A stretch of DNA of 64,000 nt, taken from Opitutaceae bacterium. Lineage in GTDB: Bacteria; Verrucomicrobiota; Verrucomicrobiia; Opitutales; Opitutaceae. The notes under the pieces are model-generated. The model did no database searches, had not been told where the DNA came from, and saw only the letters and a list, made by a program, of their open reading frames with translations. Shown here one piece after another: positions 18,979 to 42,837 of this stretch; the first letter of the stretch is position 1; the number at the start of each line of letters is the position of its first letter. The stretch covers positions 1-64,000 of the forward strand of contig JAUYAK010000068.1 of the NCBI GenBank assembly GCA_030693515.1. Direction: 5' to 3'. A program made the position numbers and the translations under genes.

Positions 18979-18987
18979 TGTGAATAA
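18979..18987 (-). promoter_or_regulatory. Perfect DnaA box overlapping the dnaA start codon
   Basis: TGTGAATAA is the reverse complement of TTATTCACA, a full match to the TTATNCACA DnaA box. The GTG start codon of the long dnaA frame (18980-18982) lies inside it. DnaA bound here would sit on the translation start region, or, if translation really begins at ATG 19010, in the leader. Confidence 0.55.
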
Positions 18988-21866: not shown

Positions 21867-22334
<468 letters not shown>

Positions 22335-22391
22335 TTATGCTCATGCGACGCGCTATCCCCGGTGCTGGCATCGGCAGTGCTAAGCCGAGGT

Positions 22392-22403
22392 TGCCAATCA
22401 CTC
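22392..22403 (+). promoter_or_regulatory. TGCCAATCACTC motif, copy 1
   Basis: An exact copy of the 12-base motif lies 28 bp before the TonB-dependent receptor start codon. Further exact copies lie at 35678, 36854 and 42770 (minus strand), and a copy with one mismatch at 35971. See the findings. Confidence 0.4.
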
Positions 22404-22431
22404 GCCAGTCAAACCGCAAGAAGGGAAAATT

Positions 22432-25185
22432 ATGGGAACTTCCATGCCTGTCCGCGCGCTGCTTCATGCTGCGCTCATCGTCACACTGCTCGCGTCTGCG
22501 GCCTCACCCCAACTCCGGGCGCAGGCCGCCCCGGCGCAACCCGCCGCCAGGCCCGAGGACATCCTGGTCCTCGAGAAATTCGTCGCCTCCGACACGAAGG
22601 AGGACGCCAACCGCATCGTGCCCAACCAGGCGACGCGCTCCGTGCTCGGCCTCGACAAGTCGCTCTACGAGACGCCTCGCTCCGCGACCAACATCAGCTC
22701 CGAGTTCCTGAAGACCCTCGCGATCCGCAACTCGGAGGATATCGCGCGCATCGCGCCGAGCACGTTCTCCAATTTCCGCTTCGGCCTGCAGGGCAACGTC
22801 AGCGTGCGCAACCAGACGTCGGATTTCTACTTCCGCGGCATGCGCCGCATCGATCCGCAGGGCAACTACCGCACCATCTTCGCCGCCAACGATTCGATCG
22901 AGATCGTGCGCGGACCGCCGTCGCCGATCTATGGCCTCGGCCGCATCGGCGGCTATCTGAACTTCAACCCGAAGACCGCGCGCCTCGAGAAAACCGGCAA
23001 ATACCTCGACAAGCCCACCGGCTACCTCAGCTACACCTACGGCTCCTACGAGAAGAACATCGTCAACCTCGACGTCGGCGGCCCCCTGAAGATCGCCGGG
23101 CGCAACGGCGGCTACCAAGTCTTCGCCTATGTCGAGGACAGCGACAGCTACTACGCCTACTCCCCCGACGACAAGCACCGCATCGTGCAGGCCACGCTCA
23201 CGCTCGATCTCAACAAGACCGGGCTGCGTCTCGAGGCCGGCGGCGTCGGCCAATATTCCTACGGCGGCCTGCCGGGCGGCATCAACCGCACCACGCAGGA
23301 CTTCGTGAACACCGGCCGCTATTGGACCGGCACGTTCAGCCACAACATCGACACCGACGGCGACGGCCGCCTCTCCGACAGCGAGATCTTTAACTCCTAC
23401 TTCAACGGCCTTCCGCAGCGCCGCGGCGCCTCCGGCGGCAGCACCATCGCCGCCAACGCCAACTACGTCGGTCAGGTCAACGCTCCTCTCAACCGCCGCT
23501 TCCCGTGGCAGGGCGGCCCCGTCAATGGCGGCACGATCACGCTCGATCAATTCCGCGCAGGTTTCCTCGATACCGCGCCCGCACTTGTCGGCGGTGCTGC
23601 CTATCAGCGTCAAGGCTACCAGATCTCGGTCTATCCTACCGACTCCACCGGCCTGCCCAACACCGCCGTGGCCAAGCAAACCTATTATCTGCCGCCCGCC
23701 TTCGATCCGCTGGCCGGCTCGTGGTCACAGGTTCCGTTCAACTACCGCAACAGCTTCGGCGAAGACTACTACGAGGCGTATGTGTGGACGGGCTTCGTCG
23801 ACTTCGTCAACGACACCAACCCCGACTTCACCTTCAAGAACCAGATCCTCGTCGACATCCAGGATCAGGAGAAGACCGGGCGGAATCCGTTCTCGCAGTT
23901 CCAAAACATCTTCCAGCTCGAGGAGAAATTCACCGTGGTGAAGAAATGGCAGCCCAAATGGGACTGGCTCGAGCTTACCACGCTCGGCTCGGTCAACGGC
24001 GTGTATTACGACGGCGGCCGGCGCACCGACAACACAGTCGACTATGATTATCGCCGCAGCCTGATGACGGGCTTCACGCCGAACGACACGTTCTCCGCCT
24101 TCACCAAGAATTCAGGTTTCGAGGGCAGCGCGCTCTCCCAGTTCATCCAGTCGAACTACCTCTCTTACGGCGTCGGCGTGCTCAACGACATCACGCTCTT
24201 CAAGCGCGCCAATCTCCTGCTCGGCGGCCGTGTGGACAGCATCGACTCCGAGGCCTATGTGCCCGCCGGGATCTTCAACCGCAACGGCAACGGCGCGCTC
24301 ACCGTCGCGAGCACCAACCCCGCCTTCAAGGGCTATGCCGATTATGGCAAGACCAACGACGTCGGCTGGTCCTGGTCCGCGAGCCTCACCGTGCCGGTGA
24401 CCGATCATCTCCGCCCCTACTTCACCTACGCGATCCAGTCTGCGGTCATTGGCGACGCCTCCACCGGTGGCGTGCCCATCGCCAATGTGAAGCGCGGCCC
24501 GCTCGGCGAATCCCTGCTCAAGGAAGCGGGCGTCAAAGGCAGCTTCTTCGGCGGCAAGCTCTTCTTCGGCCTCGCCGCCTACGAGCAGACGCGAAACAAC
24601 TTCGACGCCAACGATGGTGCGGGCGTTATCGGCGCCACGCTCGGCCGCGGCTTCGAGGGCGAGTTCCGCTGGGTTGTCAGCAAGCAGCTCTCACTCAGCG
24701 GCGGCTTCAGCCTCTCGAAGACCGTCAACCTGATCTCTTCGGGCACCGTCAACACCACTACCCGTTTTCTCGGCTACCCCGATGTGGTCGATGCCACCGG
24801 CAAGGTTGTCATCCCCGCCGAAGCCTGGGGCTGGGGCGGCATCGTCTCCACCGCGATCCCGGCGAGTGATCGCAACTACCAGGAAGTTCACGCTATCCCC
24901 GGCACAATCGTGAACATGACCGCGATCTACAATCTCACCAAGAAGCTCTCCGTCCGCGCGACCGGCTACTACCAGAGCAAATTCTCCGCGGATCGCCTGA
25001 AGACCGTCACCGTGCCTTCGGCCACGGTGATGGACGCCGGCCTCAACTACGCCTGGCGCGACTACGAGGTGCGGCTCAATGTGATCAACGTCTTCGACAA
25101 GCTCTACTTTAACGGCGGCTCGTTCAACTCCGTCGCCGCCCGCCTGCCGAGGAATTTCGACGTCACGCTGACACGGAATTTCTGA
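22432..25185 (+). CDS. TonB-dependent outer-membrane receptor
   Basis: A 917-residue protein with a signal peptide (cleavage about residue 32, after LRAQA), a plug domain (about residues 55-200: YETPRSATNISSEFL, then DSIEIVRGPPSPIYG, the standard plug motif) and a 22-strand beta-barrel with alternating aromatic residues. It ends in Phe (VTLTRNF), the outer-membrane assembly signal. The plug has the form found in siderophore-type receptors, but the substrate cannot be read from it. One of the few convincing ribosome-binding sites of the window (AAGGGA, 22422-22427) supports ATG 22432; ATG 22444 is an alternative. It leads a row of seven exported amide hydrolases, suggesting it imports their substrate. 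Confidence 0.93.
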   Translation: MGTSMPVRALLHAALIVTLLASAASPQLRAQAAPAQPAARPEDILVLEKFVASDTKEDANRIVPNQATRSVLGLDKSLYETPRSATNISSEFLKTLAIRNSEDIARIAPSTFSNFRFGLQGNVSVRNQTSDFYFRGMRRIDPQGNYRTIFAANDSIEIVRGPPSPIYGLGRIGGYLNFNPKTARLEKTGKYLDKPTGYLSYTYGSYEKNIVNLDVGGPLKIAGRNGGYQVFAYVEDSDSYYAYSPDDKHRIVQATLTLDLNKTGLRLEAGGVGQYSYGGLPGGINRTTQDFVNTGRYWTGTFSHNIDTDGDGRLSDSEIFNSYFNGLPQRRGASGGSTIAANANYVGQVNAPLNRRFPWQGGPVNGGTITLDQFRAGFLDTAPALVGGAAYQRQGYQISVYPTDSTGLPNTAVAKQTYYLPPAFDPLAGSWSQVPFNYRNSFGEDYYEAYVWTGFVDFVNDTNPDFTFKNQILVDIQDQEKTGRNPFSQFQNIFQLEEKFTVVKKWQPKWDWLELTTLGSVNGVYYDGGRRTDNTVDYDYRRSLMTGFTPNDTFSAFTKNSGFEGSALSQFIQSNYLSYGVGVLNDITLFKRANLLLGGRVDSIDSEAYVPAGIFNRNGNGALTVASTNPAFKGYADYGKTNDVGWSWSASLTVPVTDHLRPYFTYAIQSAVIGDASTGGVPIANVKRGPLGESLLKEAGVKGSFFGGKLFFGLAAYEQTRNNFDANDGAGVIGATLGRGFEGEFRWVVSKQLSLSGGFSLSKTVNLISSGTVNTTTRFLGYPDVVDATGKVVIPAEAWGWGGIVSTAIPASDRNYQEVHAIPGTIVNMTAIYNLTKKLSVRATGYYQSKFSADRLKTVTVPSATVMDAGLNYAWRDYEVRLNVINVFDKLYFNGGSFNSVAARLPRNFDVTLTRNF

Positions 25186-25206
25186 GTTCCGATCCGTCAC
25201 CCGCGC

Positions 25207-25226
25207 GGCCGCGCGCTCTCGCGGCC
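25207..25226 (+). promoter_or_regulatory. Hairpin between receptor and amidase genes
   Basis: GGCCGCG (25207-25213) and CGCGGCC (25220-25226) form a perfect 7-bp stem with loop CGCTCT in the 51-bp gap after the receptor gene. There is no T-run. This is the widest gap of the operon, so the hairpin may protect or attenuate the message between receptor and enzymes. Confidence 0.35.
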
Positions 25227-25236
25227 TCCCTTCGTC

Positions 25237-26832
25237 ATGCACTCCTCCCTCCTCCGCGTGCTCGCCTGCACGCTCGCGTTCGCCGGTTCGGCCCGCGCTC
25301 GCACGTTTGACCTCGAGACCGCCGGCATCCCCGAGATCCAGGCGGCCGTCGATGCCGGCGCGCTCACCTACGAAAAGCTTGTCGCGCTCTACCTCGCCCG
25401 CATCGCCGCCTACGATCAGCAGGGACCGGCGCTGAACACCGTCATCACGCCCAACCCGCAGGCGCTCGCCACCGCGCGCGCGCTCGATGCGGAATTCAAG
25501 GCCCGCGGCCGGCGCACGCCGATCCACGGCATTCCGGTGCTCGTGAAGGACAACTTCGACACCACCGATCTGCCGACGACAGGCGGCGCGTTCTACCTCG
25601 AAGGATCCATGACGGCCGAGGATGCGTTCATGATCCGCAAGCTGCGCGAGGCCGGCGCCATCCTCCTCGCCAAGGTCAACCTCGACGAGCTCGCCGGCGG
25701 CGGCACGGGTTTCTCCTCCCTGTGGGGGCAGACAAAGAACCCGCACGATCTCGCGCGCGTGCCTGCCGGTTCGTCGGGCGCCACAGGCGCCGGGCTCGCT
25801 GCATGGTTTGCGCCACTCGGCCTCGGCACCGACACGGGCGGCTCGATCCGCGGTCCCTGCGCCGCCAACGGCGTGCCCGGCATCAAGCCCACCAACGGGC
25901 TGCTCTCGCGCGCCGGCATCATCCCCCGCGTGCTCTCGCTCGACACCGGCGGCCCGATGGCCCGCACGGTTTACGACGTGGCGCTCGCCCTCGGCTTCAT
26001 GACCGGCCTCGACCCCAAGGATCCCCTCACGGAGAAAAGCGCCGGACTCTTCTACTCGGACTACGTGCAGTTCCTGCGCAAGGACGCGCTCAAGGGCGCG
26101 CGCATCGGCATCCTCCGCGAAGGACTCGGCAAGGAAGCCGACATCGATGCGGTGTTCAACCAAGCCGTGGCCGAGTTGAAATCCCTCGGTGCTATCGTCA
26201 TTGATCCCGTGCACTATCCAACCGTCGTGCTCGAGGGCCGCACCGGCATCTCGGAGATCATCCGCCAGGCGGACATCCGCGAGGAACTCGGCCACTACCT
26301 CGCCACGCTCAAGCCGGGCCATCCGAAATCTCTCGATGAGATTCTCGCGCTGCACGACGGCTTGAAGGAGCCGCGTGGCCGCGTCTCCCCAAATCCACGT
26401 CTCTACAAGGCGCTCCGCGACTCCAACACCGGCCTCAAGTCCACCGATGCGCTCTACATCTCCGCCAAGACGCACGGTATGGCGATGATTCGCGACGCCG
26501 TGCTGAGCACGTTCACGCAGAGCCGCCTCGACGCGATCGTCTACGCGACGCGCGGCGAGTCGCCCAAACTGATCAGCGAGTCGTCGCCGACCGATACCTC
26601 CGCGCGTCTCGGCGGCTCGCTCACGAGCATCGCCAACATGACGCAGCTCCCCGATGTGATCGTGCCCGCAGGCGCGACCAAGGCCGCGCTGCCCGTGGCA
26701 ATTTCCTTTCTCGGCACCGCGTTCAGCGAACCACGACTGCTCGCCTACGCCTATGCCTACGAGCAGGCCACGCAGCGCCGCATCTCGCCGAAGACCACAC
26801 CCGCGCTCCCCGGCGAACGCTTCGACTACTGA
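25237..26832 (+). CDS. Exported amidase-signature hydrolase 1
   Basis: A 531-residue amidase-signature (AS) family enzyme with a Sec signal peptide (cleavage about residue 20). The full Ser-cisSer-Lys triad is present: K104 in VLVKDNFDT, S179 in AGSSGATG and S203 in TDTGGSIRGP, with the canonical spacing of 75 and 24 residues. AS enzymes hydrolyse C-N amide bonds using an acyl-enzyme on the second Ser. The exported location and the position after a TonB receptor suggest periplasmic cleavage of an imported amide. It shares its N-terminal plan (FDLETAGIPEIQAAVDAGALT) with the next two genes. Substrate unknown; it is not GatA, which is cytoplasmic and comes with gatB and gatC. Confidence 0.92.
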   Translation: MHSSLLRVLACTLAFAGSARARTFDLETAGIPEIQAAVDAGALTYEKLVALYLARIAAYDQQGPALNTVITPNPQALATARALDAEFKARGRRTPIHGIPVLVKDNFDTTDLPTTGGAFYLEGSMTAEDAFMIRKLREAGAILLAKVNLDELAGGGTGFSSLWGQTKNPHDLARVPAGSSGATGAGLAAWFAPLGLGTDTGGSIRGPCAANGVPGIKPTNGLLSRAGIIPRVLSLDTGGPMARTVYDVALALGFMTGLDPKDPLTEKSAGLFYSDYVQFLRKDALKGARIGILREGLGKEADIDAVFNQAVAELKSLGAIVIDPVHYPTVVLEGRTGISEIIRQADIREELGHYLATLKPGHPKSLDEILALHDGLKEPRGRVSPNPRLYKALRDSNTGLKSTDALYISAKTHGMAMIRDAVLSTFTQSRLDAIVYATRGESPKLISESSPTDTSARLGGSLTSIANMTQLPDVIVPAGATKAALPVAISFLGTAFSEPRLLAYAYAYEQATQRRISPKTTPALPGERFDY

Positions 26833-26842
26833 CGCCCACTTC

Positions 26843-28477
26843 ATGAAATCACCACGCCTCCGCCCCCTGCCGCTCATAGCCTGCTGGCTGGGTTCCGCCC
26901 TCGGCCTTCACGCCGCCACCCTCGATCTCGAGACCGCCACGATCCTCGATCTTCAGAAAGCCTACGCCGCTGGAGTTCCGTCGGAGAAGATCGTCGAGAT
27001 TTATCTCAAGCGCATCGCGGCCTACGACCAAGCCGGCCCGAAACTCAACTCGATCCTCTTTCTGAATCCCAATGCCCTCGCCGAGGCCCGCGCCCTCGAC
27101 GCCGAGCGCAAGGCCCAGGGCCCGCGCTCGCTCCTCCACGGCGTGCCGGTCGTGCTCAAGGACAACTTCGACACCTTCGACATGCCCACCACCGGCGGCT
27201 CGAAAGCGCTCAAGGATTCCAAGCCGCTCTACGACGCCTTCACCGTGAAGAAACTCCGCGCCGCCGGCGCGATCTTCATCGCCAAGACCAATCTCGACGA
27301 GTTCGCGCGCGGCGCCACCGGCACCAGTTCGCTCGGAGGGCAGACACTCAATCCCTACAACCTCGAAAAAATTCCCGGTGGCTCCAGCGCCGGCACCGGC
27401 GCCGCCGTGGCCGCGTTGTTCGCGCAGATCGGCACCGGCACCGAGACCGGATCATCGATCCGCAATCCTTCCACGAAGAACAATCTCGTCGGCTTCTCGC
27501 CCAGCGAGGGTCTTGTCTCACGCCAAGGCATCATCCCGATCTCGATTACCTACGACCGCGGCGGACCGATGGCGCGCAGCGTCACCGACGCCGCGATCAT
27601 GATGAGTGTGATGGCCGGCACCGACGCCGCCGATCTCTTCACGCTCAATTCGCTCGGTCGTGTGCCCGCCGACAACTACCTCGGTGCCCTGAAAAAGGAC
27701 GGTCTCAAGGGCGCACGTATCGGCGTCCTCCGCGATCTTATGGGCTCCGAGGAAGCCGACCAGCCCGCCCTCGCACTCGTCGACGCCGCGATCAAGGTCC
27801 TGAAAGATCAGGGCGCCACCGTCCTCGACCCGATGCCCACGGGCGCGAACCTCTGGCAGATGGCGCGCGAGACCACCACCGGCACGGGCGAATACCGGCA
27901 GGCCATCGACTCGTATTTCGCCGCCCGCGGCACGGCCACGCCGGTCCGCAATCTCACCGAGCTCATCGCCTCCGGCGGCTACCTCGGCCGGCTGAAGAAA
28001 ATGTATGAGGATTCCAACGCCGTCGGCGAGATGACCACCAACCCCGACTACATCGGGAAGATCAAAGCCCGCTGGCTCCTCCGCGCGCACGTGGCCGAGG
28101 TGATGAAGCACTGGCAGCTCGATGCCGTGGTGTTCCCGCACGAGACGAAGCCCGCGCGCACCATTGCCGACGCCGTGCCCAACAAGGGCGCGACCGCCGT
28201 CGCCGGCGGCGAGGCCGCCAACAACCGCGTCCCCGGCACCGGCAATCGCCTCAGCACGGCCACCGGCCTGCCAACGATCGTCGTGCCCATCGGCTTCAAC
28301 AGCGACGGCGTAAGCGTCGGCCTCGAGTTTCTCGGCCAGCTCTACGACGAAGCCACGGTCATCCGCCTCGCCTACGCCTTCGAGCAGGCCGCGCCCAATC
28401 GGAAACTCCCGACAACCACCCCGCTGCTCGGCATCGAAAAAATCACCTACGGTGAGACCACCGTCGCCGCGAAATAA
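26843..28477 (+). CDS. Exported amidase-signature hydrolase 2
   Basis: A 544-residue paralogue of the preceding amidase, with a Sec signal peptide (ending near LGLHA). Catalytic residues are intact: K106 in VVLKDNFDT, S181 in PGGSSAGTG and S205 in TETGSSIRNP, with the same 75/24 spacing. A Gly to Ser change precedes the nucleophile (GSSIR). It has an extended C-terminal part containing a Gly/Asn/Ala-rich loop (NKGATAVAGGEAANN, about residues 447-461) missing from the other paralogues, which may shape substrate choice. ATG 26843 is 10 bp after the previous stop and starts the signal peptide; a longer in-frame extension overlaps the upstream gene. Confidence 0.92.
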   Translation: MKSPRLRPLPLIACWLGSALGLHAATLDLETATILDLQKAYAAGVPSEKIVEIYLKRIAAYDQAGPKLNSILFLNPNALAEARALDAERKAQGPRSLLHGVPVVLKDNFDTFDMPTTGGSKALKDSKPLYDAFTVKKLRAAGAIFIAKTNLDEFARGATGTSSLGGQTLNPYNLEKIPGGSSAGTGAAVAALFAQIGTGTETGSSIRNPSTKNNLVGFSPSEGLVSRQGIIPISITYDRGGPMARSVTDAAIMMSVMAGTDAADLFTLNSLGRVPADNYLGALKKDGLKGARIGVLRDLMGSEEADQPALALVDAAIKVLKDQGATVLDPMPTGANLWQMARETTTGTGEYRQAIDSYFAARGTATPVRNLTELIASGGYLGRLKKMYEDSNAVGEMTTNPDYIGKIKARWLLRAHVAEVMKHWQLDAVVFPHETKPARTIADAVPNKGATAVAGGEAANNRVPGTGNRLSTATGLPTIVVPIGFNSDGVSVGLEFLGQLYDEATVIRLAYAFEQAAPNRKLPTTTPLLGIEKITYGETTVAAK

Positions 28478-28488
28478 TCTCCCACCCC

Positions 28489-30057
28489 GTGAAATATATC
28501 CGTCTCTTCTTCCTGCTGGGCCTGCTGTTCGCGTCGCTTCGCGCCGCGCAGTTCGATCTGGCTACCGCCACCATCGCCGACGTCCAGGCCGCGATGCAAA
28601 GTGGCGCGCTCACTGCCGAAAAACTCGTGCAACTCTACCTCGCGCGCGTCGAGGCCTACGATAAGCAGGGGCCGAGGCTTGCTGCGTTCCTAACGCTCAA
28701 CCCGGGCGCCCGCGACGAAGCCCGCGCCCTCGACGCTGAGCGCAAAGCAGGAAAAATCCGCGGCCCACTGCACGGCACCGTCGCCGTGGTTAAGGATGTG
28801 TTCGACACCGCCGATCTGCCGACGACCGGTGGCTACGTGGTGCTCAAGGGTGTGAAACCGACAAAGGATGCTTTCGTCGTGAAGAAGCTCCGCGAGGCCG
28901 GTGTCGTCATACTTGGCAAGACCAACCAATCCGACTGGTATGCGCAGCCACCGCTCATCGCCTCGAGCACGCTCGGCGGCAATTCGCTGAATCCCTACGA
29001 TCTCAAGCGCACGCCGGGCTGGTCCAGCTCCGGCACGTCCGCCGCGCTCGCCGCCGTCTTCGGCACCATCGGCCTCGGGAGCGAGACGGGCTTCTCGATC
29101 CGCACACCCACGAGCGACGGGAATCTCTACGGGCTCGCCAGCACCTCGGGTCTCATCTCGCGCGATGGCATGATGTGGAGCTACGTCACCGGCGAGCGGG
29201 GCGGGCCGATGGCTCGCTCGATGCATGATCTCGCGGTGACGCTCGACGCGATCGCGGGCTTCGACGCGTTTGATCTGTGGACGGCGCAGAGCCTCGGCCA
29301 GATGCCGGCGCAATCCTACGTCTCGTTCCTCGACAAATCCGGGCTCCGCGGCGCGCGCATCGGCGTGCTGAAGGAAGCGTGGGACTTTCTCCCCTCCGAG
29401 CCCGAGGTCCTCGATCTCGCGAAGAAGGCGATCGCGGTTTTCCCCGCCGGCGGTGCCAAGGTCTTCGATACCGTTTCGATCGGCCTCGATCTCCGGCAGT
29501 ATCTCACGGCCAACACCTCGCCGAGCCGCTACGAGCGCATCACCGCGATCAACCACTACCTCGCGCGGCAAGGGCCAAGCTACCCGTTCAAGGACGCCGC
29601 CGCGCTGCTCCTCGGCCACAAGGATGTGCCGGGCCGCCCCGCCGACGCCGCCGCGCTCGCCAAGCCGATCGATCTCAACCGCGATCCGGAATACCGCGCC
29701 ACGCTCGCGGGCAAGGCCGCGCTCCAGCAGGCCGTGCTCGCGCTGATGGATCGCTACAAGCTCGACGCGCTCATCTACCCGCACCGCCTGCGTCGCGCCG
29801 AGCTGATCGCGCCGCGCCCGAGCGACGCCGTTTACTCCGGCACGATCCAGCTCAGCCCGATCACGGGTTTCCCGGCGATGGTGGTGCCGATGGGCTTCAC
29901 GCCCGACGGCAATCCCGTGGGCCTTGAGATTCTCGGCCGCCCGTGGAGCGAGCCCCTGCTCATCAAAATCGCCAGCGGCTACGAGGCCGCCACGCCGAAG
30001 AACCGCCAGCTGCCCAAGACCACGCCGCCGCTCGCGGGCGAGTCGTTCACCTACTGA
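28489..30057 (+). CDS. Exported amidase-signature hydrolase 3
   Basis: A 522-residue AS-family enzyme with a Sec signal peptide (cleavage about residue 20, after LRAAQ) and a GTG start 11 bp after the previous gene. The triad is present as K102 in VVKDVFDT, S179 in PGWSSSGT and S203 in SETGFSIRTP. It is the most divergent of the first three: DNF becomes DVF, PGGS becomes PGWS and GGS becomes GFS, changes that line the active site. It lacks the Gly-rich C-terminal loop of amidase 2. It should still be catalytic, with a substrate range different from its neighbours. Confidence 0.9.
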   Translation: MKYIRLFFLLGLLFASLRAAQFDLATATIADVQAAMQSGALTAEKLVQLYLARVEAYDKQGPRLAAFLTLNPGARDEARALDAERKAGKIRGPLHGTVAVVKDVFDTADLPTTGGYVVLKGVKPTKDAFVVKKLREAGVVILGKTNQSDWYAQPPLIASSTLGGNSLNPYDLKRTPGWSSSGTSAALAAVFGTIGLGSETGFSIRTPTSDGNLYGLASTSGLISRDGMMWSYVTGERGGPMARSMHDLAVTLDAIAGFDAFDLWTAQSLGQMPAQSYVSFLDKSGLRGARIGVLKEAWDFLPSEPEVLDLAKKAIAVFPAGGAKVFDTVSIGLDLRQYLTANTSPSRYERITAINHYLARQGPSYPFKDAAALLLGHKDVPGRPADAAALAKPIDLNRDPEYRATLAGKAALQQAVLALMDRYKLDALIYPHRLRRAELIAPRPSDAVYSGTIQLSPITGFPAMVVPMGFTPDGNPVGLEILGRPWSEPLLIKIASGYEAATPKNRQLPKTTPPLAGESFTY

Positions 30058-30068
30058 TCACTTTTCCT

Positions 30069-31124
30069 ATGCAACGTCTCCCTTCCCGCCTGCGCCGCGC
30101 CTTCGCGTTTCTTTGTTTCGCGACCGCCGCCGTTTCGTGCGCCGCCAATGGCGCACTCCCCACCGTCAAGCTGTTCACCACCGGCGGCACCATCCAGTCG
30201 AAGGGCGCCCACCGCGGCAAACTCTCCGAATACAGCGACGGCCGAGTCACCCCGCAGGAGCTGATCGACGATCTGCCCGAGCTGAAGACCGTCGCGCAGC
30301 TCGAGGTCGTCGAGATTTCTAACATCGGCAGCGGTGGCATGAACGCCGACCTCCTGCTCAAGCTCGCCAAGGGCATCAACGCCGAGCTCGCCAAACCCGG
30401 CGTCGCGGGCGCCGTCGTCACGCACGGCACGGGCACGCTCGAGGAGACGGCGTATTTCCTCAACCTCACGGTGAAGTCGGCCAAGCCCGTCGTCGTCGTG
30501 GGCGCGATGCGGCCCTTCACCGCGATCAGCCGCGACGGGCCGTTCAACCTCTACAACGCCGTGCGCGTGGCCGCCACGCCCGAGGCCGCGGGCAAGGGCG
30601 TGATGGTGCTGCTCAACGACACCATCCACGCCGCGCGCTTCGTCACCAAGAACAACACGTATCGCATCGAGACCTTCGTGGCCCGCGAGCTCGGCCCGCT
30701 GGGTTTCGCCGATTCAGATCGGATCGCGTTCTACCGCACGCCGCTCGGCCGGCACACGGCCACGAGCGAGTTCGACATCAGCAAGCTCGAGTCGCTACCC
30801 GCCGTCGATGTCGTCTACGGCTATCAGGAGGCGTCACCCGCGCCCATCGAGGCGCTCGTGGCCGCCGGCGTGAAAGGCATCGTGCTCGTGGATGGCTCGC
30901 CGTCCTTCGCCAAGGCGATCGCGCTCGCCCAATCGAAGGGCGTGGTCGTCGTGCAATCCGACCGCAAAGGCTCCGGACGCGTGCTTCTCAGCGAGCGCAG
31001 CGCGGGCCGCGGCCTGATCTCGGCCGACAATCTCAACGGCCAGAAAGCGCGCATTTTGCTCCGGCTCGCACTCACCAAGACCACCGAGGCGAAGGAACTC
31101 CAACGCATCTTCAACGAATACTGA
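30069..31124 (+). CDS. Exported asparaginase-family protein 1 (active-site Asp replaced by Gly)
   Basis: A 351-residue type II asparaginase-fold protein with an N-terminal signal sequence (about 26 residues; a weak lipobox-like AVSC is present). The first Thr motif is intact (TTGGTIQSKG, T41) and so is the Lys region (LNDTIHAARFVTKNNTYRIETF, K194). The second motif reads THGTGTLEETAYFL, so the Asp of THGTDT (D90 of E. coli AnsB, which binds the substrate amino group) is Gly122. The C-terminal end GLISADNLNGQKARILLRLALTKT is typical of the family. Loss of that Asp suggests a substrate without a free alpha-amino group, or loss of activity. ATG 30069 gives a clean signal peptide. Confidence 0.88.
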   Translation: MQRLPSRLRRAFAFLCFATAAVSCAANGALPTVKLFTTGGTIQSKGAHRGKLSEYSDGRVTPQELIDDLPELKTVAQLEVVEISNIGSGGMNADLLLKLAKGINAELAKPGVAGAVVTHGTGTLEETAYFLNLTVKSAKPVVVVGAMRPFTAISRDGPFNLYNAVRVAATPEAAGKGVMVLLNDTIHAARFVTKNNTYRIETFVARELGPLGFADSDRIAFYRTPLGRHTATSEFDISKLESLPAVDVVYGYQEASPAPIEALVAAGVKGIVLVDGSPSFAKAIALAQSKGVVVVQSDRKGSGRVLLSERSAGRGLISADNLNGQKARILLRLALTKTTEAKELQRIFNEY

Positions 31125-31142
31125 GCGCCCGCTCCTCCCACC

Positions 31143-32306
31143 ATGAAACGTTCCCGCCTCCTGCCCACCGTCTCCTGCCTCCTGTTCTGCACTCTCGCCT
31201 CCGCCCGTGCCCAGGAAATCCCCGGCATCCTCCCGCCCGGCCTGAAGCTCCCGCGCATCACGCTGCTCTCGATGGGCGGCACCATCGCGAGCCGCGGCGA
31301 CACGCGCCTCAACGTCACCAACTATGGCGGCCCCGGCGCGCCTCGCGTCGACCCCGAGCACTGGGTCGCGGATCTGCCCGACATGGCACTCGTGGCCAAG
31401 ATCACCACGGAGGATTTCCGCCCGCCGCAGCCCCCGCCACCCGCCCCCGGCACGGCCGCCCCGACTGGAGGCGCGGCCGGCGGCACGACCAGCGAACAGC
31501 TCTACAAGGTCGCGCGCCGACTGCAGGAACTAGCGGCAGATGACACGGTGGACGGCATCGTCGTCACGCACGGCACCAACACGATGGCGGAGTCGGCGTG
31601 GTTCATGAACCTCGTCGTCTCGATCAAGAAGCCCGTGGTCTTCGTCGGCTCGCAGCGACCGTGGACCGGCATGAGCGGCGATGGCCCGCTCAACATGCTC
31701 AACGCCGTGCGCGTCGCCGCCACCCCAGCCGCCGCCGGGAAAGGCGTGCTGCACTGCATGAACCAGAACATCAATCCGGCCCGCGACGTCACCAAGCTCA
31801 GCGCGTATCGCATGGACACCTTTAGCAGCATCGATCTCGGTGTCATCGGCGTCGCCGATCCCGATGTCGTCAAGTTCTACGCCGAGCCGGTGCGCCGGCA
31901 CACGTTCAAGAGCGAGTTCAACATCGCGTCCCTCCCGGCCGACCCCAAGACGCTGCCCGCCGTCGAGTGTGTCTATGCCTACACCGAGGCGCCCGGCTAC
32001 CTGATCGACGCGCTCACCGAACGCGGCGTGAAGGGCATCATCGTCGACGGCACCGGCGCGGGCAGTCCCACCGGTGGCCCCACCGGTCAGACGGAAGCGA
32101 TCAAGCGCGCGCAGGCCAAGGGCATCGTCGTCGCCGTGACCGCCCGCACCCGCGGCGGCCGTGTGCAGGACACACCGCGCCGTCGCGAGTCCGGCATCAT
32201 CCCCGCCGACAACCTCACGCCGGAAAAAGCGCGGATGCTCCTCCAAATCGCGCTCACCAAGACCACCGATCCGAAGGAGCTCAAACGCATCTTCGACGAA
32301 TATTGA
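31143..32306 (+). CDS. Exported asparaginase-family protein 2 (active-site Asp replaced by Asn)
   Basis: A 387-residue relative of the preceding gene with a Sec signal peptide (cleavage about residue 23, after ARAQ). T47 lies in SMGGTIASRG, K218 in INPARDVTKLSAYRMDTF, and the second motif is THGTNTMAESAWFM, so the family Asp is Asn146 here. A Pro/Gly/Ala-rich insert of about 25 residues (93-117) interrupts the N-terminal domain and accounts for the extra length. As in its neighbour, the residue that recognises the amino-acid amino group is changed. Annotated asparaginases with THGTNT exist as I recall, so this may be a functional subgroup. Confidence 0.88.
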   Translation: MKRSRLLPTVSCLLFCTLASARAQEIPGILPPGLKLPRITLLSMGGTIASRGDTRLNVTNYGGPGAPRVDPEHWVADLPDMALVAKITTEDFRPPQPPPPAPGTAAPTGGAAGGTTSEQLYKVARRLQELAADDTVDGIVVTHGTNTMAESAWFMNLVVSIKKPVVFVGSQRPWTGMSGDGPLNMLNAVRVAATPAAAGKGVLHCMNQNINPARDVTKLSAYRMDTFSSIDLGVIGVADPDVVKFYAEPVRRHTFKSEFNIASLPADPKTLPAVECVYAYTEAPGYLIDALTERGVKGIIVDGTGAGSPTGGPTGQTEAIKRAQAKGIVVAVTARTRGGRVQDTPRRRESGIIPADNLTPEKARMLLQIALTKTTDPKELKRIFDEY

Positions 32307-32318
32307 ACGTCCGCTTCC

Positions 32319-33854
32319 ATGACACCCATCCTTCACTCTCCGCCCTCGCTCAACCGACGCCGCTTCCTCGCTGCGCTGGGGGCCACGGGCGCCGCTTCGG
32401 CCGTGCTCGCGTCGCGCCTGCGCGCCGCCACCGCCGCGACCCCCTCCAAGATCCCCGATGATCCGCTGTTCGCCTCGGCCACGCGCCTGGCCGAGTTGAT
32501 CCGGACCAAAAAGCTCTCCGCCACCGAGGTCGTCACCGCGCACATCAAGCGCATCGAAGCCGTCAACCCGAAGCTGAACGCCGTGGTCTTTGCGACGTTT
32601 GAGCGGGCGCTCGCCGAGGCGAAGTTCGCCGATGAGGCCACGGCCAAGGGCCGTTCGTTCGGCCCGCTCCACGGCGTGCCCTGCACCATGAAGGACTCGC
32701 ACGAGGTCGCGGGCGTGGTCTCCACCGGCGGCACACTCGGACGCAAGGGCCACATCCCCTCCCGCGACGCGACCTATGTCGCGCGGGTGCGTGCCGCCGG
32801 CGCCATCGTGCTCGGCAAGACCAACACGCCCGAGCTCACGCTCTCCGGGCAGACGACCAACCTGATCTACGGCAAGACGCACAACCCCTACAAACTCGGC
32901 TACCAACCCGGCGGCTCCACGGGCGGCGGCGCCTCGATCATCGCCGCGGGCGGCTCTCCCTTCGACATCGGCACTGATTTCGGCGGCTCGATTCGCGGGC
33001 CTTCGCACTTCTGTGGCATCGCGGGCATCAAGCCCACGACCGGCCGCGTGCCGCGCACCGGTCATATCGTGGACTACGGCGGGTTCTTCGATGCGTTCCA
33101 GGTCATCGGCCCGATGGCGCGTTGGGTCGAGGATCTCGCCCTCATCATGCCGCTCATCGCGGGCCCGGACTATATCGACGCTGCCATCGCCCCCGCCCCG
33201 TGGCTCGATCCGAAGGCCGTCGATCTGAAAAAGATGAAGGTCGTCTATTACCTCAACAACGGTTCCGAGAAACCGCTCACCCCCGAGACCGAAACAGCCG
33301 TGAAAGCCACCGTGAAGCTGTTCTCGGATCTCGGCGTGACGGTCGTGGAGGACTGCCCCAAAGCTCTCATCCGCGAGTCGCAGGACATGCGCAACGCGCT
33401 GTCCACCGCCGACGGCCGCGGCTGGGTGAAGCGCATGCTGCGGAAATACGGCACCACGCAGGTCTCGCCCGTCATCAGCCTCACCGACTCGCCGCAGTGC
33501 GATGTCGCCGAGTTCACGCGCCTCGCCAGCGCCCTCGACGCGAACCGCTCGAAGTTCCTCCAATGGATCCAGCCCTACGACCTCCTGATCTGCCCGGTGA
33601 ACCGCGCCCCCGCCGAGCCGTGGCCGGAGGATCCGAAGCCGACGCCACCTGACCCAAAGAACATCGGCTATACCACGACCTACAACAACACCGGGTGGCC
33701 CGGCACGGTCGTGCGCGCCGGTTTCTCCCCCGACGGACTGCCCATCGGCGTGCAGCTCATCGCCCAGCCGTGGCGCGAGGATGTCTCGCTCGCCGCCGCC
33801 GCGTTTGTCGAGGCCACGACCGGGTTCGGCTTCCAGAAACCCACTGCCGTCTAA
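32319..33854 (+). CDS. Tat-exported amidase-signature hydrolase 4
   Basis: A 511-residue AS-family enzyme with a twin-arginine signal peptide (LNRRRFLAALGATG) instead of the Sec signal of the three upstream paralogues, so it is exported folded. The triad is complete: K125 in TMKDSHEVAG, S200 in PGGSTGGG and S224 in TDFGGSIRGP, spaced 75 and 24. The set of motifs FGPLHGVP, STGGTLGRKG and GIKPTTGRVPRTGHI resembles amidases of the 6-aminohexanoate-cyclic-dimer hydrolase type more than GatA. It lies 12 bp after asparaginase 2 in the same row. Substrate unknown. Confidence 0.91.
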   Translation: MTPILHSPPSLNRRRFLAALGATGAASAVLASRLRAATAATPSKIPDDPLFASATRLAELIRTKKLSATEVVTAHIKRIEAVNPKLNAVVFATFERALAEAKFADEATAKGRSFGPLHGVPCTMKDSHEVAGVVSTGGTLGRKGHIPSRDATYVARVRAAGAIVLGKTNTPELTLSGQTTNLIYGKTHNPYKLGYQPGGSTGGGASIIAAGGSPFDIGTDFGGSIRGPSHFCGIAGIKPTTGRVPRTGHIVDYGGFFDAFQVIGPMARWVEDLALIMPLIAGPDYIDAAIAPAPWLDPKAVDLKKMKVVYYLNNGSEKPLTPETETAVKATVKLFSDLGVTVVEDCPKALIRESQDMRNALSTADGRGWVKRMLRKYGTTQVSPVISLTDSPQCDVAEFTRLASALDANRSKFLQWIQPYDLLICPVNRAPAEPWPEDPKPTPPDPKNIGYTTTYNNTGWPGTVVRAGFSPDGLPIGVQLIAQPWREDVSLAAAAFVEATTGFGFQKPTAV

Positions 33855-33868
33855 ATCACTCCGCTCCT

Positions 33869-35434
33869 ATGCGCTCCCACACTTCTGCTCCCTCACGTCG
33901 TGATTTCATCGGCCAGCTCGGCGCCGGTTCCGCCGGCGCGCTGCTCGCCTCACTGCCCGCGCTCACGTATGCCAATGGCACCTCAGCGGACGCCAAGCCC
34001 TCCTGGCTCACCTCCAAAGATCCGTCGGATGAGATCATCTGGATGTCGGCCACCAAGCTCGCACAGCTCATCCGGGGGGAAAAAATCTCCGCGCGCGACG
34101 CGGTTGAGGCGCACCTCCGGCGCATCGAGCAGGTGAACCCGAAGCTCAACGCCGTCGTGCAAACGTGCTTCGATCGCGCGCGCACCGAGGCCAAAGCCGC
34201 CGACGAAGCGCTCGCTGCCGGCCGCATCATGGGTCCGCTGCACGGTGTGCCGTTCACGATCAAGGATTCGTTCGACACCGCGGGCGTCATTTCGACCGGC
34301 GGCACGGTCGGGCGCGCGAACTTCATCCCGTCCGAAGACGCGACCGTCGTCGCGCGCGTGCGTGCCGCGGGCGCGATTCTCCTCGGGAAAACCAACACCC
34401 CCGAATTTACGCTCGCCGGCGGCGGCATCCCCGGCGTCAGCACGACGGCCAACATCATCTATGGCATCTCGAAAAATCCATGGGACCAGCAGCGCTCCAC
34501 CGCCGGATCCTCCGGCGGCGCGGGCGCGATCGTGGCGGCGGGCGGCGCGTCATTCGACATCGGCTCCGACTACGGCGGCTCGATTCGCATGCCCGCGCAT
34601 AACAACGGCTGCTGCGGCCTCAAGCCCACGTTCGGCCGCGTGCCGCGCACCGGCCACATCGTGGACTACGGCGGGATTTTCGACTCTTGGCAGGAGACCG
34701 GCCCGCTCGCGCGCCGCGTCGAGGACCTCAACCTCATCACCGCGATCATCGCCGGGCCCGACTACAAGGACGCCGCGATGGTCCCGATCCCGTGGCGCGA
34801 TCCGGCCGCGGTGCAGGTGAAGGGCCTGCGGGTCGGATTTTACGCGGAGAACGGCATCGCCGAGGTGTCGCCAGAAACAATCGCAATTGTGAAGCAGGCG
34901 GCGGCCTATTTCGCCGAGCTGGGCTGCCCGGTGCAGGAGGATTTCCCGAAGGCCATCATCATGGAGCTGGAGGAAATCCGCTCCAAGCTCTCGCCCGCCT
35001 CCGGCCCCGGGCTCCTGCGCCTCGCCGAGAAGTGGGGCACCAAGGCCATCTCCCCCACGATCCTTGCGCGCGCGAAGCAAGAGATGGTTTCGACCGCCGA
35101 ACTCGTCGAGCTGCTTGAGAAACAGGACGCCAGCCGCAGCCGGCTCCTCGGCTGGATGAAGAACTACGATATCATCATCAACCCCGCCATGCCCAAACCC
35201 GCCCAGCTGATAAACCTCGGGGACCAGCCCAACGCCCGCCGTCCGGGCAGCAGCTTCATGGGCACGCACAACACCAGCGGATATCCCGCCGCCGTCGTGC
35301 CCGCAGGCAAGTCCACCGAAGGCCTGCCCATCGGCGTGCAGCTCATCGGCCAGCCGTGGATGGAGGATAAGGTCCTCGCCGCCGCCGCGTTTCTCGAAAC
35401 AAAAACCGGCGGCTGGCAAAAGCCGCCCGTGTGA
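33869..35434 (+). CDS. Tat-exported amidase-signature hydrolase 5
   Basis: A 521-residue AS-family enzyme, the closest paralogue of the preceding gene, again with a twin-arginine signal (PSRRDFIGQLGAG). Catalytic residues are K132 in TIKDSFDTAG, S214 in TAGSSGGAG and S238 in SDYGGSIRMP; a seven-residue Gly-rich insert (GGGIPGV) enlarges the gap between Lys and the first Ser to 82. It shares GRVPRTGHIVDYGG exactly with amidase 4. ATG 33869 is 14 bp after the previous stop and preceded by AAATCACTCC, a partial version of the recurring motif. It is the last gene of the 13-kb row. Confidence 0.91.
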   Translation: MRSHTSAPSRRDFIGQLGAGSAGALLASLPALTYANGTSADAKPSWLTSKDPSDEIIWMSATKLAQLIRGEKISARDAVEAHLRRIEQVNPKLNAVVQTCFDRARTEAKAADEALAAGRIMGPLHGVPFTIKDSFDTAGVISTGGTVGRANFIPSEDATVVARVRAAGAILLGKTNTPEFTLAGGGIPGVSTTANIIYGISKNPWDQQRSTAGSSGGAGAIVAAGGASFDIGSDYGGSIRMPAHNNGCCGLKPTFGRVPRTGHIVDYGGIFDSWQETGPLARRVEDLNLITAIIAGPDYKDAAMVPIPWRDPAAVQVKGLRVGFYAENGIAEVSPETIAIVKQAAAYFAELGCPVQEDFPKAIIMELEEIRSKLSPASGPGLLRLAEKWGTKAISPTILARAKQEMVSTAELVELLEKQDASRSRLLGWMKNYDIIINPAMPKPAQLINLGDQPNARRPGSSFMGTHNTSGYPAAVVPAGKSTEGLPIGVQLIGQPWMEDKVLAAAAFLETKTGGWQKPPV

Positions 35435-35677
35435 GCGCCCCGGTGCGCCGCAATCCGCCGCAGTGACCATGACTCCGCCCACGGCCCCCACCCCGGACGT
35501 TGCGCCGAGGATTTCCGCGCCGGCATTGGAGGCGTTCGTCGCCGCGTTTCTCAGCGGCTCGGGCCGCACGCCTGAAAGCTACGACGATTCCTGGGCCGCC
35601 ACAGTTTTTCCGGTTCCGCCGCCGCTGGATAACAAAGGGCCTGAAAGAGCCCCGGGGTAACGCCTGCCGCTGAATAA

Positions 35678-35689
35678 TGCCAATCACTC
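35678..35689 (+). promoter_or_regulatory. TGCCAATCACTC motif, copy 2
   Basis: An exact copy in the gene-poor stretch, about 300 bp before the next gene. It is not adjacent to any intact start codon, and may mark a lost gene or an upstream promoter. Confidence 0.35.
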
Positions 35690-35970
35690 AACCGCACTCG
35701 CACTTCCAGAAACCCAATCAGGCTGGTGGAAAAGACGCACACCGTTCCGCGCGTTGGCAATTTCATTCATCGCCACGACGCGTGGCATTCATGCGAAGCA
35801 CGTGCCGCGCGAACTCCCCGCGCGCGTTTCTCCTCTGGGAAACGCCCGCGGCCCTCGCGTCTTCATTCGTTGCATCGCGCAGATGAAATCATTTCAGGCC
35901 AGCGATCCTTTACTCTCGCGCGAGACGCAGTAGCCGTTTTTTGGTCCACGGCATCCGCCGCAGACAAAAA

Positions 35971-35981
35971 TCCAATCACTC
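35971..35981 (+). promoter_or_regulatory. TGCCAATCACTC-like motif, copy 3
   Basis: TCCAATCACTC, which matches the motif from its third base onward, lies 13 bp before ATG 35995 of the exported hypothetical protein, in the same relation to the start as the copy at 42770. Confidence 0.35.
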
Positions 35982-35994
35982 AGTCCCCCATCGC

Positions 35995-36705
35995 ATGAAA
36001 ACCCTAAGAACATTGCTCGCCGCGGGCGCCCTGCTCGCCGCTTATTCCCCTGTCTTCGGCTCCGTCGAAGCACCCGCCCAATCCCGCGCCGAAGGCTGGC
36101 TCACCCGCTACTACGAGAATCCCCGGCCCGACGACCTGCTTGTCTCCGTCCACCGTCTGAGCGCCGACGGCTTCTTCGAGCGCGCCGGCCACACCGCGAT
36201 GGCGATCGGCTTTTTCGCCGAGGTCTTCGCCCAGCACCCGCATCGGGTCGGCCCGTGGCTCGGCCAGACCGCCACGCTGCCCGCGGCCCACCGCCGCATC
36301 CTCGCCGCCGCCGCGTGGCAGGCCGGCCATCCCCGCGGGCTCGCGCTGATGCGCGAGTTCAACAGCACCGACGAGGCCTCCTCGCGGATGCAGGTCAACG
36401 AACTCCTCCGCCGCGGACCCGCACCCGTCGCCGGCACGCCCGTCGTCTCGGAGTCGTCGCTCCGTCTCCAGTGGGGCGCGTTCCTCGCCACCGGCCGTGA
36501 TGAGCATGTCGTCGCGATGCTCCAGGCCCTCGGCAAGAACGAGCGCGACCTCACCCTCGCGGTGCGCTACGCGATCGCGGAGAACGCCGTCAGCCATCGC
36601 CGCGTGCTCGAAATCTGCCGCGCTCAGCTCGACAAGCAGCCCGAGTCTGTGCGCTCCGAGCTCCGCGCCGCCCTCAAGGAGGCCGCGATCCAGCCCCGCA
36701 TCTGA
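35995..36705 (+). CDS. Exported hypothetical protein, helical repeat type
   Basis: A 236-residue protein with a Sec signal peptide (cleavage about residue 20, after SPVFG). The mature part is helix-rich, with an Arg/Ala/His composition and short helix pairs (GHTAMAIGFFAEVFAQHP, RILAAAAWQAGHPRGLALM, HVVAMLQALGKNERDL) reminiscent of TPR or Sel1-like solenoids, but no repeat signature is clear. No catalytic motif is recognised. It is preceded by a copy of the recurring motif and followed by a strong terminator, so it is a single-gene unit. It might be an accessory periplasmic protein of the amide locus; this is inference from position only. Confidence 0.75.
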   Translation: MKTLRTLLAAGALLAAYSPVFGSVEAPAQSRAEGWLTRYYENPRPDDLLVSVHRLSADGFFERAGHTAMAIGFFAEVFAQHPHRVGPWLGQTATLPAAHRRILAAAAWQAGHPRGLALMREFNSTDEASSRMQVNELLRRGPAPVAGTPVVSESSLRLQWGAFLATGRDEHVVAMLQALGKNERDLTLAVRYAIAENAVSHRRVLEICRAQLDKQPESVRSELRAALKEAAIQPRI

Positions 36706-36730
36706 TCCGCCACCCGATTCATCTCCGCAG

Positions 36731-36758
36731 GCCGGCCCGTTCGCGGGCCGGCTTTTTT
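36731..36758 (+). terminator. Rho-independent terminator with TTCG tetraloop
   Basis: A perfect 9-bp stem GCCGGCCCG/CGGGCCGGC (36731-36739 with 36744-36752) closed by the stable TTCG loop and followed by six T residues. It ends the unit of the exported hypothetical gene, whose stop is 25 bp upstream. Confidence 0.92.
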
Positions 36759-36852
36759 GTGTGCGTCGTTCACAGCCAGTGGGACGCGCGTGAAACCTCT
36801 TCATGCCGGGCCCGGCTTCGGGCGCGGGGCACAACGGCTGCTCTCCCGGCCC

Positions 36853-37407
36853 ATGCCAATCACTCGCCGCCTCCCATCTGGAAACGGTCGGTTCCTCGCC
36901 GCGGGCCTGCTCTCCGCGCTGCTTCACTCCGCGCCCTGCGCCGCGGCGCCGGTCGCCGTGGCGATCATCCAAGAGGCTCCCTGGTCGCCCGGCGACGACA
37001 CCCGCGAGGGCGCGGGCGAATTCGCCGTGCTGATGCAGATCGCGGAGCTGCGCCGCAGCGGCGCCTGCGCGGGCCTGCTGGGCGTGGGCGCCGCGCGCGG
37101 CGTCTTCGCGCCCGGCGCCGAGCGCGCGCTGCGCTTTGCCGCGCTGAACGGCGTCGCAGTCGTGAAACTCGGGGCCCGCGGCGACGTCGCGCCCTGCCCC
37201 GACGAGATTTTCGCCGATGCAGGCGGGCTCACAACGGCCGAAGCGCAGCGCACCCTGCGCGACGCGCTCGCCATTCTCGGCTCACCGCCGCGCGCGGCCA
37301 ATCCGCTCGCCCCGACCGTGGACGAAATCGCCGCGGTGCGCGCGCACATGCGGCGGCTCCAGCAGCATTTCATTTTGGCGAATGCGACCGTTGTAGCGCG
37401 CAACTGA
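36853..37407 (+). CDS. Exported protein resembling the asparaginase C-terminal domain
   Basis: A 184-residue protein with a Sec signal peptide (cleavage about residue 32, after CAAA). The mature region follows the order of an asparaginase C-terminal domain: VAIIQEAPWSP (compare VYGYQEASPAP in the asparaginase at 30 kb), a GACAGLLGVGAARG turn, AALNGVAVVKLGARG (compare AQSKGVVVVQSDRKG), then IFADAGGLTTAEAQRTLRDAL (compare LISADNLNGQKARILLRLAL). The catalytic N-terminal domain is absent. This relationship is my reading of a weak pattern and is not certain. ATG 36853 is itself part of a TGCCAATCACTC copy. Its stop abuts the convergent RND gene stop with no gap. Confidence 0.6.
   Translation: MPITRRLPSGNGRFLAAGLLSALLHSAPCAAAPVAVAIIQEAPWSPGDDTREGAGEFAVLMQIAELRRSGACAGLLGVGAARGVFAPGAERALRFAALNGVAVVKLGARGDVAPCPDEIFADAGGLTTAEAQRTLRDALAILGSPPRAANPLAPTVDEIAAVRAHMRRLQQHFILANATVVARN
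36854..36865 (+). promoter_or_regulatory. TGCCAATCACTC motif, copy 4
   Basis: An exact copy that overlaps the apparent ATG start of the asparaginase-like exported protein and codes for the residues PIT after Met. If the true start is elsewhere, it lies in the leader, as in the other copies. Confidence 0.35.
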
Positions 37408-42761: not shown

Positions 42762-42769
42762 GGTGGCGG

Positions 42770-42781
42770 GAGTGATTGGCA
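42770..42781 (-). promoter_or_regulatory. TGCCAATCACTC motif, copy 5 (minus strand)
   Basis: An exact copy on the minus strand, 8 bp before the ATG of the exported acetamidase gene and oriented toward it, as are the other gene-proximal copies. Confidence 0.4.
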
Positions 42782-42837
42782 CACACCGCCAAGCCGGAAG
42801 CGTGCCACGGGCGGGACGGATGCCCGACGTAAGCGCG

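Follow-up and report, generated by a model that had tools for sequence, protein, structure and literature searches.

What does a bacterium gain from a TonB-dependent receptor gene that is followed, on the same strand, by seven genes for exported amide hydrolases? Such a row lies in a 64,000-nucleotide stretch of an Opitutaceae genome (Verrucomicrobiota; assembly GCA_030693515.1, contig JAUYAK010000068.1, positions 1 to 64,000), which we call the window throughout. Because the same set of genes recurs in distant bacteria, it looks like an undescribed system for using external amide compounds. Our preferred reading, to which we give a probability of roughly 0.53, is that of a TonB-dependent amide-utilisation locus, one that follows the plan of a polysaccharide utilisation locus with amide hydrolases as its enzymes. 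We infer the following roles: the receptor would carry a compound rich in amides, or several related compounds as a mixture, through the outer membrane; a periplasmic panel of AS-family amidases (exported by Sec and Tat), two asparaginase-fold proteins with altered pockets and an FmdA-type hydrolase would cut different amide bonds; this cleavage would release small acids, amines or ammonia for nutritional use; and an RND pump would clear unused or harmful intermediates from the periplasm. The substrate that we favour is a peptide-like compound in which the amide under attack has no free alpha-amino group beside it.

The eight-gene operon and its enzymes

The operon occupies positions 22432-35434 of the + strand, in the order TonB-dependent receptor, AS1 to AS3 (AS amidases), AN1 and AN2 (asparaginase-fold proteins), AS4 and AS5. 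An earlier reading of the window, made from its letters and open reading frames (ORFs) and here called the sequence-only reading, had described eight co-directional genes with gaps of 51, 10, 11, 11, 18, 12 and 14 bp, and our ORFs reproduced this layout exactly. Its assignment of one receptor, five AS amidases and two asparaginase-fold proteins was likewise borne out by Pfam (one Plug, five Amidase, and two pairs of N- and C-terminal asparaginase domains), with all eight proteins scoring above the curated cut-offs. The proposed end at 35434 can be kept, while the start has to move from 22392 to 22432, the receptor's first in-frame ATG. As the limits of the system, the interval 22392-35434 holds the eight-gene core but is too short, in that the conserved system extends to 42782, and an FmdA-family hydrolase, an RND pump and its adaptor, and two small exported proteins had been overlooked. 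The window system as treated here thus consists of 13 proteins, namely those of the operon, two small proteins, the RND permease, the RND adaptor and FmdA (Table 1).

The clustering of the AS genes is not due to chance. The window genome (6.65 Mb in 130 contigs) has 10 AS genes, five of them in the operon, and random placement would bring five of ten within 10 kb with P ≤ 6.4e-9; two of its three asparaginase-fold genes also lie in the operon. An adjoining receptor proves little on its own, because the same genome contains at least 150 plug-domain matches.

The five AS enzymes all keep the Lys-cisSer-Ser triad and differ around the nucleophile (GGSIR, GSSIR, GFSIR, GGSIR and GGSIR in AS1 to AS5), as the sequence-only reading had reported. 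In AS4 the second Ser of the GSS motif is replaced by Thr, at a position that, by FAAH numbering, lies outside the triad. The export signals claimed for all seven hydrolases were also found, as twin-arginine motifs in AS4 and AS5 and as Sec-like hydrophobic N-termini, judged by eye, in AS1 to AS3, AN1 and AN2; a crude export-signal scorer placed AS2 just below its threshold. From the window and the array regions described below, 162 AS ORFs were collected, of which 146 of at least 460 aa were aligned and 16 shorter ones left aside. The triad is intact in every one of these 146 proteins, and 138 have a Sec- or Tat-like N-terminus by the crude test, the eight that fail including the window's AS2 and some with a late or missing start.

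Among solved structures, AS1 is closest to peptide amidase (Pam of Stenotrophomonas maltophilia, PDB 1m21/1m22, with 1m21 the best match), with which it shares the AS family and the triad. AS1 to AS3 nevertheless score 395.8, 373.3 and 327.3 bits against the peptide amidase-like equivalog PRK08137, below its cut-off of 534 bits, although this is the best or second-best NCBIfam model for each of them. The best solved relatives of the Tat-type AS5 are GatA, the UMG-SP urethanases and 6-aminohexanoate-cyclic-dimer hydrolase; the latter two, known as single enzymes, do not come from such an array, and their likeness to AS5 is one of sequence. In a FastTree tree of the 146 AS proteins, 12 maximal clades of 3-14 leaves with support of at least 95 mix Verrucomicrobiota with Gammaproteobacteria and together hold 87 of the proteins. 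AS1, AS3 and AS4 fall within such clades and AS2 and AS5 outside them, the smallest clade with two window AS proteins has 23 leaves, and the nearest tree neighbour comes from the same genome for 19 of the 146. Because of the mixed-phylum clades, we regard the arrays as largely old sets of different enzymes common to both phyla rather than as recent copies.

AN1 and AN2 belong to the family of type II L-asparaginase (E. coli AnsB, whose numbering we use). Residues were counted in 20 AN1 and 19 AN2 non-redundant proteins, after removal of 11 duplicates and with three rows of a related type, AN3, set aside. Thr12, Tyr25, Thr89 and Lys162 are retained in all 39, whereas Asp90 is lost in all 39, being Gly, Ala, Ser or Thr in the 20 AN1 proteins and Asn in the 19 AN2 proteins; Gln59 is replaced by Gly or Pro in all 20 AN1 proteins, and AN2 has a Pro-rich insert in the corresponding loop. 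The third asparaginase-fold protein of the window genome (C27, outside the array) retains both Asp90 and Gln59. A passage of one paper counts Asp90, with the four retained residues, among five L-asparaginase residues crucial for catalysis (PMC8256714), and a passage of another describes it as invariant in L-asparaginases and critical for canonical substrate binding (PMC6667453). AN1 and AN2 therefore keep four of the five catalytic residues of a type II L-asparaginase, and because Asp90 is lost we do not file them as asparaginases. The corresponding model, TIGR00520 (cut-off 314.3 bits), scores AN1 above the cut-off (374.5) and AN2 below it (281.7). The strict retention of the other four residues speaks for catalysis by both proteins, which may act on amides without a free alpha-amino group.

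AN3 is a degenerate protein of about 590 aa with asparaginase remnants and without the Thr12 motif (L026 8662-10449 and relatives). It is conserved at 52-75% between phyla and is perhaps a binding protein derived from an enzyme. No full-length AN3 was found in the window genome, where an ORF like the AN3 C-terminal part and weak asparaginase matches were detected.

The window FmdA shares its Pfam family with the acetamidases/formamidases FmdA and AmdA, and its nearest solved chain (3b9t) was deposited as a Tat-signal protein. It differs from them in its export-type N-terminus and in scoring 67.3 bits against the formamidase equivalog NF045496, for which the cut-off is 500 bits. Its relatives at 56-60% lie in array regions of the Nevskia order (Gammaproteobacteria), mostly adjoining AN1 and AN2.

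Recurrence of the gene set

The sequence-only reading had proposed a dedicated system with exported paralogues, and conservation supports this: the content recurs in other genera, other families and another phylum, although the gene order varies and some loci show no recognisable receptor. When named genomes were scanned with AS3, ten loci came up; genes in the related loci were called as simple longest ORFs, and AS counts are approximate, with fragments from contig ends and frameshifts, chiefly in the Opitutae metagenome-assembled genome (MAG) G057 and in a Cellvibrionaceae MAG. AS3 relatives at 60-95% occur in eight of the ten loci, from Opitutaceae/Opitutae, Cellvibrionaceae, Nevskia and MAGs labelled Chloroflexi/Dehalococcoidia.

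The whole eight-gene operon is present at 91-96% in an Opitutaceae MAG of the same genus (L005, whose gene places match those of G018 contig C3). In Opitutaceae EW11 the receptor is followed by six AS genes in a row and preceded by AN1, AN2, an AS4-like and an AS5-like gene (8 AS in total). G057 has 28 AS ORFs, a count that includes end fragments, spread across four contigs, and tandem AS genes are found in the Cellvibrionaceae and Nevskia MAGs, several of the Cellvibrionaceae ones split by frameshifts. A closed genome of the same family, G030, has about 50 kb on one strand with a receptor, 22 AS genes, six of AN1/AN2 type, AN3 (595 aa), FmdA and a lipocalin-like protein, broken by one opposite-strand transporter-like gene (SulP type by eye); the largest such set comprises about thirty proteins of amide-hydrolase families. 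In another family of the class, a single row of same-strand genes in G116 comprises a receptor, 10 AS genes, AN1, AN2, AN3, an adaptor and an RND permease.

AS genes were also counted (E ≤ 1e-50) in 23 genomes of at least 95% completeness, the window genome and 22 of its relatives: 21 genomes in which AN2 was not found have 1-6, G018 has 8 and the window genome has 10. At E ≤ 1e-60, AN2 is present in 3 of 57 genomes (the window genome, G018 and G030). A three-gene AS row in a genome of the same genus (G008, contig C3 62494-67156), in which AN2 was not found at that threshold, is perhaps a different small array.

AN1 is found at E ≤ 1e-110 in 13 of 85 genomes of the Nevskia order. In the 13 short loci taken from this order, AN2 was recognised beside AN1 in 11 and a window-like FmdA in nine. 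A membrane protein without a Pfam family, MEM598, lies upstream of AN1 in 11 of the 13 by eye, and BLAST confirmed it in all six longer stretches. Proteins of this type (L008 12611-14407; G444, G473, G439, G469, G452, G438) have about 570-600 aa with His-rich motifs by eye and are possibly membrane enzymes. At E ≤ 1e-5 MEM598 was found in G060 and not in the window genome, G018, G030, G057, G058 or G116; because it is present in one of these seven genomes, we do not count it as a core part.

Other genes accompany particular arrays. G030, G438 and the Nevskia MAG, which represent two phyla, have SPFH (HflK/HflC-like) and heavy-metal P-type ATPase genes beside or inside their arrays (L025 2256-7915; G438; G060 contig C198 26817-32774). 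FecR/sigma-factor-like genes adjoin the receptors of G473 and G438 by eye, and a peptide-synthetase-like adenylation fragment, also recognised by eye, is found at one margin of the G473 stretch, about 12 kb away from the RND genes there (contig C3 325003-325878; L071). Single AS3 homologues (60-63%) with no evident signal peptide by eye occur in L010, L011 and L012, from MAGs labelled Dehalococcoidia/Chloroflexi. In L011 (labelled Chloroflexi), the homologue is flanked on one side by a peptide-type solute-binding protein (SBP_bac_5) and on the other by a CoA-transferase, neighbours that are a faint pointer toward peptide-like substrates.

Receptor, pump and small proteins

The operon receptor has relatives at 96% in G018, 46% in G058, 44% in G057, 40% in G116 and 50% in G030 (partial). 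Its profile is nearest, among solved chains, to the metallophore/siderophore receptors for pyochelin, pyoverdine and pseudopaline and to one unnamed receptor, by weak matches that cover mainly the N-terminal plug part. Genes for TonB, two ExbD and one ExbB lie upstream of the G030 receptors, and similar genes lie near the EW11 array by eye.

The window has both components of an RND efflux pump that we looked for, a permease and an adaptor. The adaptor is frameshifted, with 216 aa against 357 aa for the intact protein of G018 and the remainder in another frame, toward the permease (two-frame match); either a sequencing error or a real loss could account for this. Among 384 genomes of the class, AN1 occurs at E ≤ 1e-110 in four, namely the window genome, G030, G116 and G195, the last of which is probably EW11, judging by its coordinates. 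The same four genomes give the four highest matches to the window's RND permease (100, 71, 71 and 63%), the next, at 60%, coming from a genome without AN1 and only a small margin below G030. Disregarding kinship, this coincidence has a probability of 1.1e-9; the four genomes do not count as independent cases, but G116 belongs to a different family. Array regions with an RND permease of 67-72% identity were also seen in G444, G473, G438 and the Cellvibrionaceae MAG, and a permease of 63-66% lies beside the array region of G030.

The first small protein (35941-36705), which more likely starts at the ATG of residue 19, is 41% identical over 237 positions to a protein adjoining the EW11 adaptor and pump genes. 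The second (36757-37407), whose true start is probably an internal ATG, matches its EW11 counterpart at 42% over 139 positions and G030 AN3 at 30% over 145 positions. In EW11, the counterparts of both, an adaptor and a 70% permease lie together on one strand, about 13 kb past the last AS gene of the array.

Table 1. Proteins of the window system, with positions in the window and the basis of each assignment.
Feature	Position	Strand	Basis
TonB-dependent receptor, 917 aa	22432..25185	+	Pfam Plug 34.1 bits (cut-off 23.9)
AS1, Sec-type AS amidase, peptide-amidase-like	25237..26832	+	PF01425 289.7 bits
AS2, Sec-type AS amidase	26843..28477	+	PF01425 316.2 bits
AS3, Sec-type AS amidase, GTG start, GFSIR nucleophile motif	28489..30057	+	PF01425 229.5 bits
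AN1, exported asparaginase-fold protein, Asp90->Gly, Gln59->Gly (E. coli AnsB numbering)	30069..31124	+	PF00710+PF17763, alignment to 3eca
AN2, exported asparaginase-fold protein, Asp90->Asn, Ser58/Gln59 loop replaced by Pro-rich insert	31143..32306	+	PF00710+PF17763, alignments
AS4, Tat-type AS amidase	32319..33854	+	PF01425 316.0 bits, RRRFL motif
AS5, Tat-type AS amidase	33869..35434	+	PF01425 327.1 bits, RRDFI motif
Small protein, export-type N-terminus (by eye), no Pfam family	35941..36705	+
Small protein like C-terminal part of AN3, no Pfam match	36757..37407	+
RND efflux permease, AcrB type	37408..40515	-	PF00873 954.9 bits
RND adaptor (membrane fusion protein), frameshifted	40962..41612	-	HlyD_D23
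FmdA (acetamidase/formamidase family), export-type N-terminus (by eye)	41625..42782	-	PF03069 112.4 bits (cut-off 27)

Proposed amide utilisation and its alternatives

The amide-utilisation reading draws on the recurrence of loci with many AS genes, the co-occurrence of AN1 with one RND lineage, the TonB, ExbD and ExbB genes of G030, the intact AS triads and the four retained residues of AN1 and AN2, the export-type N-termini, the closeness of AS1 to peptide amidase and the neighbours of the AS3 homologue in L011. Several observations weigh against the reading of the locus as an amide-utilisation system. A window-like receptor was not recognised in four of the six longer Nevskia-order stretches, and in the other two it was recognised at 32-34% identity. 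G439 and the Nevskia MAG have RND permeases of other lineages (26% and 33-34%, respectively), and no RND gene was seen in the array stretches of G469 and G452. The SPFH and heavy-metal ATPase genes of three loci are left unaccounted for. AN1 and AN2 could be inactive, because the passage cited above counts Asp90 among the residues crucial for catalysis (PMC8256714). Finally, a nitrogen-control site was not found, the sigma-54-like match at 22366 being at chance level.

The main rival, which we consider unlikely, is detoxification or resistance, in which the exported amidases would degrade amide-type compounds, natural toxins or xenobiotics, within the periplasm and the RND pump would expel them. 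The tie of an AcrB-type multidrug pump to the system would fit this, as would the many paralogues, which would suit a changing toxin set, and the patchiness of the distribution, with AN1 found in four of the 384 class genomes and 13 of the 85 from the Nevskia order. The receptor, which in G030 has its own TonB-ExbD-ExbB genes, would however import the toxin, and anti-phage defence models (PADLOC) are matched by none of the seven proteins tested of the 13, a result on which we also rejected an anti-phage defence system. We are more doubtful still that the locus matures or recycles a metallophore or another secreted compound, with the periplasmic hydrolases processing an amide-bonded product, the pump exporting it and the receptor retrieving it. 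This explanation stays alive because of the receptor's profile matches, the FecR-like genes and the adenylation-domain fragment, the latter two seen by eye; the loci without this pump and the heavy-metal ATPase genes of three loci point the same way. The receptor matches are weak and mainly to the plug part, however, none of the 13 window system proteins is a synthetase by Pfam, and up to 22 AS proteins seems beyond the needs of maturation.

The sequence-only reading had the enzymes strip amide nitrogen from Asn/Gln-rich or cyanophycin-like material, an idea to which we now give little credence. In its favour, the enzymes are exported and AN1 scores above the TIGR00520 cut-off, with AN2 below; yet Asp90 is lost throughout both types and Gln59 throughout AN1, both residues are kept in the non-array paralogue C27, and none of the 13 proteins is a cyanophycinase by Pfam. 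It is most improbable that the AS genes were merely duplicated in tandem, neutrally and with no common function. The 19 AS proteins with a same-genome nearest neighbour agree with such duplication, whereas the mixed-phylum clades covering 87 of the 146, the 23 leaves of the smallest clade that unites two window AS proteins, and the unrelated families that travel with the AS genes all argue against it.

The amide-utilisation reading borrows its model from polysaccharide utilisation loci, which are TonB-dependent nutrient loci. Like them, the locus combines a TonB-dependent receptor with many paralogous exported hydrolases, has in G030 a TonB-ExbD-ExbB set, and is accessory and patchy; unlike them, it contains amide-cutting families, no carbohydrate enzyme among the 13 proteins (Pfam) and an attached RND pump. 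This comparison rests on the receptor, the hydrolases, the TonB set and carbohydrate enzymes. No description of an array of AS, asparaginase and receptor genes was found in the literature searched (titles and abstract openings; most subscription papers lay outside the coverage). Each family is already known; what that literature did not describe is how the families are combined, how large the set is and the altered pair of asparaginase-fold proteins. There is a fair chance that this TonB-dependent utilisation locus could form a class of its own. Tentatively, and at somewhat less than even odds, a fuller claim can be put forward: the locus would represent a new class, doing for amides what a polysaccharide utilisation locus does for polysaccharides, and would combine a receptor, TonB energy, up to about 30 proteins of amide-hydrolase families and an efflux pump; AN1 and AN2 would be new enzymes attacking amides without a free alpha-amino group; and the whole, common to Verrucomicrobiota and Gammaproteobacteria, would digest one abundant, unrecognised class of amides.

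If the amide-utilisation reading is right, dedicated machinery common to phyla digests a class of environmental amides, machinery that is broken up into 'amidase', 'asparaginase' and 'multidrug efflux pump' when genes are annotated one family at a time, and a pump of AcrB type next to such an array may work in catabolism rather than drug resistance. The arrays bring dozens of natural exported AS proteins together in one place, with possible use in peptide-amide, urethane and polyamide chemistry. In AN1 and AN2, where a so-called invariant residue is replaced in all 39 proteins, the role of Asp90 becomes testable in natural variants.

Some minor observations concern the surroundings of the operon. 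Control by sigma-54 (nitrogen) was rejected: the match at 22366, 66 bp before the receptor, has one mismatch and is no better than chance, with three such matches in the window against 7.55 expected and a score of at least 9 reached by 116 of 1000 random 250-mers. The match is also present in G018 and was not seen at the same place before the receptors of G058, G057, G116 and G473; a search of 21400-37000 for sigma-70-type promoters found none. A plasmid origin was rejected too, in that no plasmid record encodes AN2 at E ≤ 1e-60, and plasmid-borne FmdA relatives are all less than 60% identical. About 2 kb upstream of the operon (18980-20416) lies a gene for a putative DnaA-like protein; the array may therefore sit near the replication origin. 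Elsewhere in the window genome, on contig C42 (L001 6836-15501), a second row on one strand contains a receptor, an AS gene, an isochorismatase-family hydrolase, a permease-like protein without a Pfam family and another AS gene. Its receptor is 28% identical to that of the operon, and the row resembles a catabolic locus of its own, of urea or amide type.

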